A stretch of 34,650 nucleotides of DNA from Candidatus Gastranaerophilales bacterium (lineage in GTDB: Bacteria > Cyanobacteriota > Vampirovibrionia > Gastranaerophilales > Gastranaerophilaceae): assembly GCA_944322895.1 (NCBI GenBank), contig CALUQL010000013.1, forward strand, positions 1 through 34,650, given 5' to 3'. How positions within the stretch are numbered: position 1 is the first letter of the stretch; every line of letters starts with the position of its first letter. A program made the translations under genes and the position numbers. The notes beneath the pieces are model-generated. The model was not told the origin of the DNA and made no database searches. It saw only the letters and a list, made by a program, of their open reading frames with translations. Shown here in pieces: positions 7,982-13,120 of the stretch.

Positions 7982-8872
7982 TTAGTATACGTAGTCTTGG
8001 TATAAACTTATTGAAATATTATTATTTTTTAGTTTATTTAATGCTCTTGCTTCTGTTTGTCTTATGCATTCTTTTGTTACACCATATATTTTACCGATTT
8101 CTTCCAATGTTTGTCTTTCATTGCCTCCAATGCCAAATCGCATTGTTATTACTTTTTGTTCTCTTTCTTTTAAATTCTTAAGTAATGACATAATATCTTT
8201 TTTTAGGGATTCACTTTCAATTTCTTTTGAAATTGAGCTTTTTTTATCCTCGATGATATCTATTAATTTAACTTCAGAGCCGTTTTGCATTTCGAAATCA
8301 CCTTCTAGTGATAAAGTTTTTTTATAAGCATTTAGGTAATTATTTATTTTATCTGATTCTGTATTCATTCTTTTTGCAACTTCATCAATGCTTATTTCTT
8401 TTTGACTTTCTTTTTCCATTTCTGATTTTATTTTTGAATATTTTGAAAGTGTTTCTTGAATATAAACAGGAATTTTTACGCTGTGTGATTGTTCTGATAT
8501 TGCTTTAAACATTGCCTGTTTAATCCACCAGCTTGCATATGTTGCAAATCTGTAGCCGAATTTCCAGTTAAACTTATCTATTGCAACCATAAGTCCGATG
8601 TTGCCTTCTTGTATTAGATCGGTCATTGGTAATTTGCTTGTATGAATTACTTTCCTTGCAATCATTACTACTAATTTCAGGTTCGCTTTTGTTAGCTTCT
8701 CTTTTGCTTCTTTTGAACCGTTTTGTATTTGTCTTGCAAGTTCTTGTTCTTCTTCAATTGTTAATGATTTATATTTAGAAATTTCCTTAACATAATTTAC
8801 CAAATTTGTTTCTGAAAAAAGATTTGTTGAAAAATTTTCTGAATCTAATGTTGATACACAATTTAATGCCAT
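7982..8872 (-). CDS. RNA polymerase sigma-70 family factor (SigA/RpoD-related)
   Basis: A 296-residue sigma factor. Region 1.2 is near residues 22-50, and region 2 is strongly conserved: ANLKLVVMIARKV, DLIQEGNIGLMVAIDKF, then RFATYASWWIKQAM, which contains the -10 recognition helix. Region 3 begins at SVKIPVYIQE. Region 4 holds MRFGIGGNERQTLEEIGKIYGVTKECIRQTEARALNKL, the -35 helix-turn-helix. Region 1.1 is absent and the protein is short for a primary sigma (usually 350 residues or more), so a group 2 factor, or a reduced primary sigma, is likely. ECIRQTEARAL replaces the more usual (R)ERIRQIEA(K/R)AL. AGGAG precedes the ATG with good spacing. A perfect palindrome lies about 60-80 bases upstream. 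Confidence 0.92.
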   Translation of the reverse strand: MALNCVSTLDSENFSTNLFSETNLVNYVKEISKYKSLTIEEEQELARQIQNGSKEAKEKLTKANLKLVVMIARKVIHTSKLPMTDLIQEGNIGLMVAIDKFNWKFGYRFATYASWWIKQAMFKAISEQSHSVKIPVYIQETLSKYSKIKSEMEKESQKEISIDEVAKRMNTESDKINNYLNAYKKTLSLEGDFEMQNGSEVKLIDIIEDKKSSISKEIESESLKKDIMSLLKNLKEREQKVITMRFGIGGNERQTLEEIGKIYGVTKECIRQTEARALNKLKNNNISISLYQDYVY

Positions 8873-9158: not shown

Positions 9159-12100
9159 ATGTTATTAGAAGGCTCAGTAAATAGTAAAAGAACAGATTTC
9201 CTTGCTGAAAAGTATGTGGAATTAATCAAGCAGGGAAATAGTCCTGAGGATATTTTAGTTATTCTTTTAAATTCATATAAAAAAGCAAATTTTATAAATA
9301 AAGTTTGTGCCTTAAATCCTCAGTTAAGACAAGAAAAACATCAGGTATATACTTTTTGGGGGCTTTGCTATAATTCGATTAGTGATAATTGGGAATATAT
9401 TTCCAGTTTAATAAATAGGTCAGAAAGCACTTCAAAACCAAATTTATGTGGATTGGAAGTTTCTCAATTTATTTTTAAACAGAGTATAAAAGAGGCGGAT
9501 TTTTCAGATTATATATCTAAGGTTAATCTTCTTCATCAGCTTTTTAGAAGGTATTCTTTAATTGTTCAAAATGAACTTACTAATGATGAAATAAAAGAAC
9601 GTTCAGAATTGTTAAGAGAAAGTTTTTATATTGATGCCCAAAAGGCGATTGACGATTATAAATTCAAAACTATTAAATATACCAGTTTTGATTATTTAAG
9701 ACAGCTTGCTATATTGCCTTTTGTTTATAAGAATACTGATTACTTTAAGAAGATAAAATTTCTTTTGGTTGATGATGCAGATGAGTTTTCATTTGCATTT
9801 TGGTCTTTTGTTTATCATTTAGTTCCTCAATTAAATGAATATTATATTGCCTATGATCAAAACGGTTCATCAAGATGTGGATATTTATGTGCTTATAAAT
9901 CGGGTGTTATAGAATTTTCAAGAAAATATAAACCTGAAATTATTAGATTAAAAGATGATTGTATTTTGTCAAAAAAAGCTGAAGATTTCTTTATCAATAT
10001 TCAACAAGGTAAAAAGATAAAAATTGCTGATATAAAATACACTATTCAGCCAAAACGTTTGGATATGTTTGATGCTGCAATTTGTGAAATAAATAAACTC
10101 ATAAGAAAAGGGATAAAACTTTCTGATATTTCTGTAATTACCCCGGTTGTAGATGAAGTATTAATGCAATATTTTAAAGAACAAAAGTGTGGTATAAAAT
10201 TTCAGGTAATATCCGGTAGTGAAAAACTTGTTCAAAATAATATTGTTAAGTATATTCTAATATTACTGAAACTTATTAATGGTTTTAATGTACAAGTTTA
10301 TGAGTTAAAAAGTTTATTAATTAATCTTTTGAAAATACCATATCGTAAATGTATTGAAATTATTAGGGAATATTCTTCTTCTTCTGGATTAAAGGATTAT
10401 ACTTTTTCAGAAGATATAAATAATTACAGATATAAAAAATTGTGTTCTGTTATTGCTTCTGAATTAAAAAGTAATAATAGTATTTCCAATCAAATAAAAA
10501 TAATTTTTTCTAATATTATTCAAGAATTTGAAACAGAAGCAGATAAAGAAAAGTATGATTTTCTTCTGAAAGAAGCAGAAAATTTTGAAAAAGCATTCTC
10601 TGAAAGCGTATCTGATATTGCTAAAGAATTTATTTTACAAATAGAAAATAGTGTAATAAGTGAAAATCCTATAGATTCTTTTGCTTTGCCCAAAGATGCA
10701 ATTATAGTTTCAAGTCCTCAAAAAATAATTGACTTCTCTATAAGAACAAAGTATCAACTTTGGCTTGATGTATCTAATTGCGAATGGTTAAAACAAGATA
10801 CAGGTACTCTATATAATGCTTGGGTTTTAAGTAAAGATTGGCAGAAAAAAGAATATACATTGGAAGATAATATTTTATTAACAAGAGAAAAAACGGCAAG
10901 AATTGCCAGAAAACTAATTTTGTGTGCGCAAGAAAACATTATGTTTTTTGCAAGTATATATGATAATACAGGCAATGAAAATTTTGGCGGTTTGTCTGAT
11001 TTTCTTGAAATAAAAGAAGAAAAGAAACAAGAATTTAAGATAATTCCTAGGGATGATCAAAAAAAAGTTCTTGAATATAAAAAAGGGAAAATGGGTGTAA
11101 TGGCGGTTCCTGGTGCAGGAAAAACCACTATATTGTTAGCTTTAATCATAAAATTGTTAAATGAAAAAGTTGCTCCTGAAAATATATTTGTTTTGACATA
11201 TATGGAATCTGCGGCTAAGAACTTTAAAGAAAGAATAAAAGCTGCTGTTTCAGATGATTCTGATCTTCCTAATATATCGACTATTCATGGGCTTGCATTA
11301 AGAATAATAAAAGAAAATGCAAATTATAATAAAATAGGCTTAGATGAAAATTTTGAAATATGTGATGATACTTTAAAAGAAAGAATAATAAAGGAATTAC
11401 TTTATAAACTGAAAATTGATGATGAAAAATATGATAATTTTTTAAGATGTATATCTATAGTCAAATTATCTGCTTATAATGGCGAGCTATATTCAAAATA
11501 TAAAGATATTCAAGAGTTTTACAGGTTTTATGAAGAATACAATAAAATTCTCAAACAAAGTAATTTGCTCGATTATGATGATATGCTTTGTTATGCAGTT
11601 AAAATACTTGAAAATAATCCTGAGATATTAAATTATTATCAAAATATCTGTAAATACATAATCGAAGATGAGGCACAGGATTCAACTGAAATACAACAAA
11701 AATTAATTTCTTTATTGAATGGAAAATATAATAATTATGTTCGTTGTGGTGATATTAATCAGGCGATTACATCTACTTTTACAAATAGCGATTTGGAAAG
11801 TTTTAGAAATTTTATCGGAATAAATAATAAAGTAGAGATGGTATCTTCTCAAAGATGTGCAAAACCAATATATTCTTTTGCTAATTCTTTTATAAATGAA
11901 GTCTCTCAAAATGAAGAAACCAAAAATGCTTTTTATAATATTCAAATAAAAGGAACAGATAAAAATCCAAAAAATAATAAAAAACCTGAATATATATTGT
12001 TTCAAGAAGAAAAGGAAGAAAAAACTTTTATAATAAACAAGATAAAAGAAATTTATAATTTTGATTCTTCTGCATCAATTGCAGTTTTATTGAGGTTAAA

Positions 12101-12977
12101 TTCTCAAGTTAATGAATATAATGAATTATTATTGTCAAAAGGTATAAAAACTTCAATAAGATCTGATTGTTTAGCACAGAAAAATATATACAGACTTATA
12201 CATTCGGTTTTAAATGTTATTAATAATCCGGTAAGTAACATTAGTATATATGAGTTGGCTCAAGAATATAATAAAAGTAATATTTATGAATTTGGTGAAG
12301 ATACAATTAACTTTTTAAGAAATTTGCAAACACCATTTATGAAAATGAATCCTGATGAAATTAATGATGAAGGACTTTTACAGTTGTTTTGGGATATTGA
12401 TTATTGGCTTAATAATTCTTCTATCGAAACCGATATTTTGGTTTTAAATATAGGTCTATTTTATTCTAAAAATTCTGTTGATAAATCTAATTCATATATG
12501 ATTTCGGCAATGGTAAAAAGGATGTTCGCAGAAAACGAAAGCTTAGAAAGTATAATAAAAAAGCTGGAATATTCCGCTCAAAAATCTTTGAGTGCATATA
12601 GATTCTTTGAAAATGAACTTGTTGAGACGAATGATATTCCTATAGAAATAATGACAATGCATAAATCAAAAGGTGATGAATTTGATTATGTGTTTATTCC
12701 AGAACTAAATGAAGAAAATTATCCGACATCAATAAAAAATGTAAAACTCAAAAGCGGTGGGCATTTTGTTCAGATAATAAAAAATTCAATTGATAATAAA
12801 GGAATTAAAACTCCTGATGAACTAAAACTGGAACAAATTGAAGAAACACTAAGGCTTTTATATGTTGGATTTACTCGTGCAAAAAAAGAACTTTATTTGA
12901 CTAATTCATTAAATTATAAAAAAAGAAAGAATACTAAATCTGTTGAAATAATTAATAAAATATCACTTGAAACTTGA
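9159..12977 (+). CDS. UvrD/Rep-type SF1 helicase fused to a degenerate N-terminal helicase half
   Basis: A 1272-residue protein, about twice the size of a normal UvrD. The C-terminal half has every SF1A motif: Q-motif Gln634, Walker A AVPGAGKT (649-656), Ia VLTYMESAAKNF, Ib STIHGLALRI, Walker B IEDEAQD (835-841), III GDINQ (864-868), IV QR (898-899), V TMHKSKGDEF (1166-1175) and VI YVGFTRA (1235-1241). The N-terminal half (about 1-620) follows the same order in degraded form: GSVNSKRT at 5-12, ILVILLNSYKKANF at 32-45, YTFWGLC at 64-70, VDDADEF at 204-210 and DISVITPV at 323-330. ATPase residues are lost there. No nuclease domain follows motif VI. It should unwind DNA in repair or recombination. 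The ATG has no clear Shine-Dalgarno sequence. It appears to stand alone. Confidence 0.9.
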   Translation: MLLEGSVNSKRTDFLAEKYVELIKQGNSPEDILVILLNSYKKANFINKVCALNPQLRQEKHQVYTFWGLCYNSISDNWEYISSLINRSESTSKPNLCGLEVSQFIFKQSIKEADFSDYISKVNLLHQLFRRYSLIVQNELTNDEIKERSELLRESFYIDAQKAIDDYKFKTIKYTSFDYLRQLAILPFVYKNTDYFKKIKFLLVDDADEFSFAFWSFVYHLVPQLNEYYIAYDQNGSSRCGYLCAYKSGVIEFSRKYKPEIIRLKDDCILSKKAEDFFINIQQGKKIKIADIKYTIQPKRLDMFDAAICEINKLIRKGIKLSDISVITPVVDEVLMQYFKEQKCGIKFQVISGSEKLVQNNIVKYILILLKLINGFNVQVYELKSLLINLLKIPYRKCIEIIREYSSSSGLKDYTFSEDINNYRYKKLCSVIASELKSNNSISNQIKIIFSNIIQEFETEADKEKYDFLLKEAENFEKAFSESVSDIAKEFILQIENSVISENPIDSFALPKDAIIVSSPQKIIDFSIRTKYQLWLDVSNCEWLKQDTGTLYNAWVLSKDWQKKEYTLEDNILLTREKTARIARKLILCAQENIMFFASIYDNTGNENFGGLSDFLEIKEEKKQEFKIIPRDDQKKVLEYKKGKMGVMAVPGAGKTTILLALIIKLLNEKVAPENIFVLTYMESAAKNFKERIKAAVSDDSDLPNISTIHGLALRIIKENANYNKIGLDENFEICDDTLKERIIKELLYKLKIDDEKYDNFLRCISIVKLSAYNGELYSKYKDIQEFYRFYEEYNKILKQSNLLDYDDMLCYAVKILENNPEILNYYQNICKYIIEDEAQDSTEIQQKLISLLNGKYNNYVRCGDINQAITSTFTNSDLESFRNFIGINNKVEMVSSQRCAKPIYSFANSFINEVSQNEETKNAFYNIQIKGTDKNPKNNKKPEYILFQEEKEEKTFIINKIKEIYNFDSSASIAVLLRLNSQVNEYNELLLSKGIKTSIRSDCLAQKNIYRLIHSVLNVINNPVSNISIYELAQEYNKSNIYEFGEDTINFLRNLQTPFMKMNPDEINDEGLLQLFWDIDYWLNNSSIETDILVLNIGLFYSKNSVDKSNSYMISAMVKRMFAENESLESIIKKLEYSAQKSLSAYRFFENELVETNDIPIEIMTMHKSKGDEFDYVFIPELNEENYPTSIKNVKLKSGGHFVQIIKNSIDNKGIKTPDELKLEQIEETLRLLYVGFTRAKKELYLTNSLNYKKRKNTKSVEIINKISLET

Positions 12978-13032
12978 TAAAGTTTATATTAATAATATTT
13001 CATATACTAGTGTTTTTTTGGAAAACAAGTGC

Positions 13033-13038
13033 TATAAT
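13033..13038 (+). promoter_or_regulatory. Probable -10 box for the BlaI-like gene
   Basis: TATAAT is a perfect -10 hexamer, 83 bases before the ATG at 13121. No good -35 box is visible 16-18 bases upstream, only a T-rich run, so the promoter may rely on a regulator or on other contacts. Confidence 0.4.
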
Positions 13039-13120
13039 AGTAGTAATTAATCTTTTAAAAGATTATACGGGTTGTAGTAATTTAAAATATTTAAGATATA
13101 AAAATTAAAAGGATGGATTA

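Follow-up and report, generated by a model that had tools for sequence, protein, structure and literature searches.

The window, that is, the whole stretch of DNA analysed (34,650 nucleotides), is an entire contig of a genome of 2.15 Mb in 159 contigs. Its nearest named relatives are Candidatus Gastranaerophilales. An open reading frame on the forward strand (9159-12977) encodes a protein of 1272 aa in which two UvrD-fold halves are joined in one chain; its N half is 96% identical to that of Ca. Avigastranaerophilus faecigallinarum. The neighbours of this fused gene are housekeeping genes, and on its 3' side it is followed by genes for a BlaI-like regulator, a metallo-beta-lactamase-fold protein, a DUF3326 protein and a tRNA synthetase. 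The features of the locus are listed below.

7982-8872, reverse strand: sigma-70-family gene (regions 1.2-4), divergent; the intergenic region upstream of it also serves the fused gene
9159-11012, forward strand: N half, residues 1-618, inactivated UvrD/AddB-like SF1 helicase with domains 1A-1B-2A-2B (AlphaFold2, Foldseek, hhalign)
9171-9194, forward strand: Walker A position, residues 5-12, with the degenerate sequence GSVNSKRT; cyanobacteria and further families of the order have an intact GxxxSGKT here
9351-9362, forward strand: motif Ib-like TFWG, residues 65-68, pairing with TIHG of the C half
9768-9785, forward strand: motif II remnant VDDADE, residues 204-209, catalytic Glu replaced by Asp, pairing with EDEAQD of the C half
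9852-9887, forward strand: motif III position YDQNGSSRCGYL, residues 232-243, GDxNQ lost and a family-specific G..R.GYL conserved instead
10125-10148, forward strand: entry strand of domain 2A, motif IV region, residues 323-330 (DSSP strand 324-327 in the model)
10701-10736, forward strand: motif V position, residues 515-526, with Q521, K522 and D525 invariant
10890-10934, forward strand: motif VI position, residues 578-592, with R584, K585 and L586 invariant and the arginine-finger TRA missing
11013-12977, forward strand: C half, residues 619-1272, active-type SF1A (UvrD/AddA-like) 3'-5' helicase (PF00580, 7e-51; PF13361, 1.5e-23)
11103-11126, forward strand: intact Walker A AVPGAGKT, residues 649-656 (105/105 fused relatives)
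11664-11684, forward strand: intact motif II EDEAQDS, residues 836-842 (alignment of relatives)
11748-11768, forward strand: intact motif III GDINQAI, residues 864-870 (alignment of relatives)
12654-12686, forward strand: intact motif V TMHKSKGDEFD, residues 1166-1176 (alignment)
12861-12884, forward strand: motif VI YVGFTRAK, residues 1235-1242, arginine finger present
12978-13120, no strand: site of the nuclease gene of most relatives, empty here; the next gene encodes a BlaI/Penicillinase_R-like regulator

The N half was modelled with AlphaFold2 from 28 orthologs, and a complete SF1 helicase fold was obtained for residues 1-618 (pLDDT 89.9, pTM 0.88). When the model was compared with the PDB by Foldseek, UvrD (E 7.9e-19) and AddB (E 1.8e-15) were matched, as were PcrA, Rep and AdnB. 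The matches spanned the whole N half, AdnB being the closest single chain (TMq 0.69) and AddB reaching up to 0.64. The paired RecA-like domains 1A and 2A, on which the original prediction of a UvrD-type pseudo-helicase depended, are therefore present. The motif order that it described, with the ATPase residues lost, was recovered at residues 5-12 and 204-209, and the strand that it placed at 323-330 corresponds to a strand at 324-327 of the model.

Sequence matches of the N half were weak. Pfam returned nothing significant for the isolated half, PF00580 scored 25.2 bits against a cut-off of 23 in the whole-genome search, and the N-half profile gave a single weak match to Rep (E 0.17) among PDB sequences, so that profile-profile and fold comparison were needed. 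Alignment of the N-half family with the C-half family by hhalign placed 353 columns in register (E 9e-11), Walker A and motif II being paired; a chance resemblance of the N half to helicases can thus be set aside. A structure search among viral proteins yielded ordinary phage and giant-virus helicases only. Motif II reads DDxDE in the N half versus DEAQD in the C half, and the Glu expected at position 206 is missing from all 127 pseudo-helicases examined (some loci counted twice). Walker A of the pseudo-helicase is degenerate in the family of the window and in family f6, and intact (GPLKSGKT, APLGSGKT, GPTGSGKT) in families f2, f4 and f7, in G375 (another order) and in the cyanobacterial homologs. 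For most members of the genus, identity amounts to 51-60% in the N half versus 59-68% in the C half, and across the order to 33-35% versus 38-41%. As its conservation almost equals that of the C half, the N half is under selection; judged by these sequences, it is as old as the active half and nearly as constrained.

The second part of the chain was expected to be an intact helicase, and this was borne out: AVPGAGKT, EDEAQDS and GDxNQ[AS]I are kept in 105/105 C halves. By Pfam, an intact UvrD core is found in residues 632-1249 only. A nuclease domain was not found on the C half, and the chain stops after motif VI. Among NCBIfam models the C half is nearer to PcrA (188 bits, cut-off 911) than to AddA (addA_Gpos, 92 bits, cut-off 708), and the curated AddB model did not match the fused protein. 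True PcrA is encoded in these genomes as well, and the C half falls outside the PcrA clade in the tree.

Related genomes were searched for the same architecture, as had been suggested, and the fusion of a dead with a live helicase was found in 36 of the 38 sampled relatives, some copies being split by contig ends. The fused gene was not found in G025, G037, G152, G319, G324 or family f8, in which PcrA-level matches only were obtained; the system may accordingly have been lost several times within the order and class. Two further helicase-related loci were recorded. At G000:C53:3815-5200 (L098) a UvrD-like helicase match carries one in-frame TGA, so that either the gene is broken or the assembly is in error. 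At G000:C110:587-5578 (L099) a 1663-aa open reading frame contains SF1 helicase domains (AAA_11/AAA_12) together with a nuclease domain of the MTES_1575 restriction type.

A search with PF12705 (PD-(D/E)XK) revealed genes of 220-230 aa adjoining the fused gene in several families, and a profile built from these small nucleases was used to search the genomes for further copies. The frames of the two genes overlap by 4-8 bases in five genomes (G034, G036, G028, G033, G031). The nuclease gene, which usually overlaps the fused gene, lies directly downstream of it in most genera of the family of the window, in G375 and in three other families (f3, f4, f7, where 4-8 bases are shared); in f2, f6 and some genera of f1 it is encoded elsewhere in the genome. 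It is adjacent in 43/43 named loci of other Gastranaerophilaceae genera, with one further locus lacking it. The protein has a D..DWK core, a Cys near its N terminus, a C-terminal Cys and a weak match to Cas4. Since Fe-S nucleases of the AddB/Cas4 type show comparable Cys motifs (PMC5704561), it may bind an iron-sulphur cluster.

Only the genus of the window (Avigastranaerophilus-like) is clearly devoid of this gene. None of its 32 loci that extend 1 kb or more downstream of the fused gene holds the nuclease, the further locus L264 lacks it too, and a whole-genome search of 12 genomes of the genus gave no copy of the small nuclease. Profile matches in the genus fall inside UvrD-Cas4-type fusions of about 1000 aa, and no PF12705 match was obtained anywhere in the assembly of the window (93% complete). 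The statement that the system has no nuclease consequently stands for the chain and for the genus; it fails as an ancestral state, because relatives carry an overlapping PD-(D/E)XK gene. By this distribution of sequences, the absence in the genus is a secondary loss. A link between decay of Walker A and loss of the nuclease was considered and rejected, as other genera of the family with a degenerate Walker A keep the nuclease. In the genus, the motor would either work alone or draw on another nuclease, such as the UvrD-Cas4 protein that sister species encode, and without the nuclease the enzyme of the genus may now do something else. Nuclease orthologs with an in-frame stop were seen at G297:C5:92366-93007 and G327:C80:42350-43111 and may be early steps of the same loss. 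A fusion of UvrD with a Cas4-like domain (about 1023 aa) occurs in most relatives of the genus (G020:C7, G005:C2, G013:C5, G017:C14 and G027:C1; loci L100-L104).

The same parts occur unfused elsewhere in the phylum. In G050, a deep lineage in another family, three overlapping genes encode, in this order, a pseudo-helicase (673 aa), a helicase (712 aa) and a nuclease (at most 280 aa); in G072 the helicase and nuclease genes overlap, and the pseudo-helicase is encoded elsewhere. Photosynthetic cyanobacteria possess a standalone pseudo-helicase of 660-770 aa, strong scores being obtained in 122 sampled genomes, which aligns with the N half over 607 columns (hhalign, E 5.6e-31). Its model (pLDDT 74) had AddB as the top PDB match (3u44_B, 3.1e-18), and RecC chains were also matched. 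The active partner in cyanobacteria is a distinct helicase of 740-820 aa with the signature MAVSAVPGAGKS. In a maximum-likelihood tree, the fused C halves and the standalone helicases of cyanobacteria, G050 and G072 form one clade (100/99), which lies apart from PcrA and the UvrD-Cas4 proteins. The cyanobacterial nuclease ortholog (260-300 aa) aligns with the Gastranaerophilales nuclease at E 1.4e-17 (hhalign). The three orthologs sit at separate loci in most photosynthetic cyanobacteria. By sequence relationship, the fused gene is the joined form of three separate cyanobacterial genes and not a one-off architecture. Fold, motifs and phylogeny together uphold both a single chain with a pseudo-helicase and a live helicase and its likeness to AddB and RecC.

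Co-occurrence was determined in 43 cyanobacteria positive for the pseudo-helicase: the helicase was present in 41/43 and the nuclease in 43/43 (one of them a 27-residue fragment). In family f36, with genomes of 1.6-3.7 Mb, the helicase (0/30 genomes) and the nuclease (0/30) were not found, and neither was the pseudo-helicase. RecC, on the other hand, was detected in 57 f36 genomes and in 0/122 genomes with a strong pseudo-helicase match; RecC (PF04257) was likewise absent from the genome of the window and from the listed relatives. recBC genes are reported from marine Prochlorococcus and Synechococcus only, model strains being without recBec and recC or recCD (PMC5101192), for which reason f36 is presumably the picocyanobacterial family. 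Within the phylum sample RecC was confined to f36, f13 and f27. Five deep carriers lie outside f36, namely G041, G047, G055 and G069 (f13) and G090 (f27); three of them (G055, G069, G090) also gave weak matches to the pseudo-helicase profile. RecBCD may thus be the ancestral state for part of the phylum. The mutual exclusion with RecC concerns largely one clade (f36) and comes near to a single replacement event; functional equivalence is therefore supported, not proven.

The closest known counterpart is AddAB of the Bacillus subtilis type. Common to both are a UvrD-fold pseudo-helicase with inactivated motifs (the N-terminal domain of AddB there), one active SF1A motor (AddA), paired here with the pseudo-helicase by fusion or by overlapping genes, and, in the relatives of the genus, a nuclease of the Cas4/AddB type. 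The Walker A that many members have kept in vestigial form, and that is intact in several families, also has its parallel in AddB, where another ATP site persists and lends stability to the Chi complex (PMC4824097). Unlike in AddAB, the two helicase modules form a single chain or come from separate genes, and the nuclease is a separate gene, whereas in AddAB it is the C-terminal domain of AddB (PD-(D/E)XK, Fe-S). The second PD-(D/E)XK nuclease at the C terminus of AddA is missing from the AddA-like half, and the AddA and AddB family models stay below cut-off for the fused protein. By strict features (nuclease domains, model scores) it is not a member of AddAB. The module set is nevertheless that of AddAB in another partition: AddB without nuclease plus AddA without nuclease, with the nuclease in trans. 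RecBCD is similar in that an active SF1 helicase has an inactivated one, RecC, at its side, and differs in that the RecC family PF04257 is absent here and the nuclease is not fused to the motor. Mycobacterial AdnAB also pairs UvrD-fold subunits, but AdnA and AdnB each bear a nuclease domain and neither half does here. The C half has the fold and motifs of UvrD, PcrA and Rep, yet it scores far under their equivalog cut-offs and belongs to a clade apart from the PcrA of the same genomes. UvrD-Cas4 fusions and the uvrD plus cas4-like operons of Clostridiales (PMC5704561) likewise join an SF1 helicase to a PF12705 nuclease; no pseudo-helicase is described for them, and the UvrD-Cas4 fusions of the present genomes form another clade. 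The trio of pseudo-helicase, helicase and nuclease was not found described in the open-access literature, although subscription literature may hold more; Synechococcus elongatus is said in passing, without analysis, to encode 'AddAB' (PMC10269773).

Taken together, the fused gene probably encodes the AddB-like/AddA-like motor of a DNA-end-processing enzyme of the AddAB type, with the nuclease acting in trans. A nuclease is missing from the chain, the operon and the genus; the gene is monocistronic amid housekeeping genes, PcrA is the best-scoring model for the C half, and most relatives possess a separate UvrD-Cas4 fusion. These observations would also fit an accessory helicase or translocase without nuclease, with a Rep/PcrA-like role at forks or in transcription, in which the N half served as a processivity clamp or autoinhibitory module and end resection was gone in the genus. 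We consider this unlikely: the genomes carry a true PcrA as well, the operon of close relatives still includes the nuclease, and its loss in the genus left the fused protein otherwise unchanged.

An anti-phage helicase (Gabija GajB-like, or in a UvrD-Cas4 defence context) appears highly improbable, the PADLOC profiles for GajB and DRT helicases matching the C half through generic UvrD similarity. Neither GajA, the OLD-family ATPase of Gabija, nor another defence neighbour was found beside the gene, which, unlike defence genes, is near-universal and vertically distributed across the order; the defence function was rejected for its generic profile matches and housekeeping neighbours. That both halves are UvrD-like and that Walker A is decaying in the family of the window might point to a recent tandem duplication of UvrD with one functionless copy, a reading that hardly deserves credence: the N half is conserved across the order almost like the C half, with invariant residues of its own, and cyanobacteria have it almost universally as a protein in its own right.

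On the preferred reading, an AddAB-type motor, the fused protein most likely works like AddAB. In AddB and RecC the pseudo-helicase is located to the rear of the active motor and retains the 3' strand when Chi is reached (PMC4824097, PMC4027173). By analogy, the C half would unwind DNA from an end in the 3'-5' direction at the expense of ATP, and the 3' strand would enter the channel of the pseudo-helicase, where the N half would guide, contact or scan it; the trans nuclease of the relatives would trim the products to a 3' tail for RecA. A scanning or regulatory role of the N half, as originally proposed, is a reasonable inference from AddB and RecC (PMC4824097). Assembly of the parts into one complex, threading of the 3' strand, scanning of sequence and a role in RecA loading would follow from the same analogy.

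Cyanobacterial model strains, though without recBC, recombine well enough for routine gene replacement. From the sequence data, the trio is a strong candidate for the 'missing' RecBCD/AddAB that would process double-strand breaks in most cyanobacteria. On balance, we lean towards the view that most photosynthetic cyanobacteria, long called RecBC/AddAB-less, would carry a dispersed three-gene equivalent of AddAB, which RecBCD would have replaced once (in picocyanobacteria) and which would be fused in Gastranaerophilales, one genus being without its own nuclease. The fused gene serves as a Rosetta stone by which three unannotated, unlinked cyanobacterial genes become one testable machine. Pseudo-helicase, motor and nuclease occur fused, in operons, dispersed or with a part missing, and this variety informs the assembly of RecBCD and AddAB. 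In the genus of the window, nature supplies a form without nuclease in which the roles of motor and scanner can be told apart.
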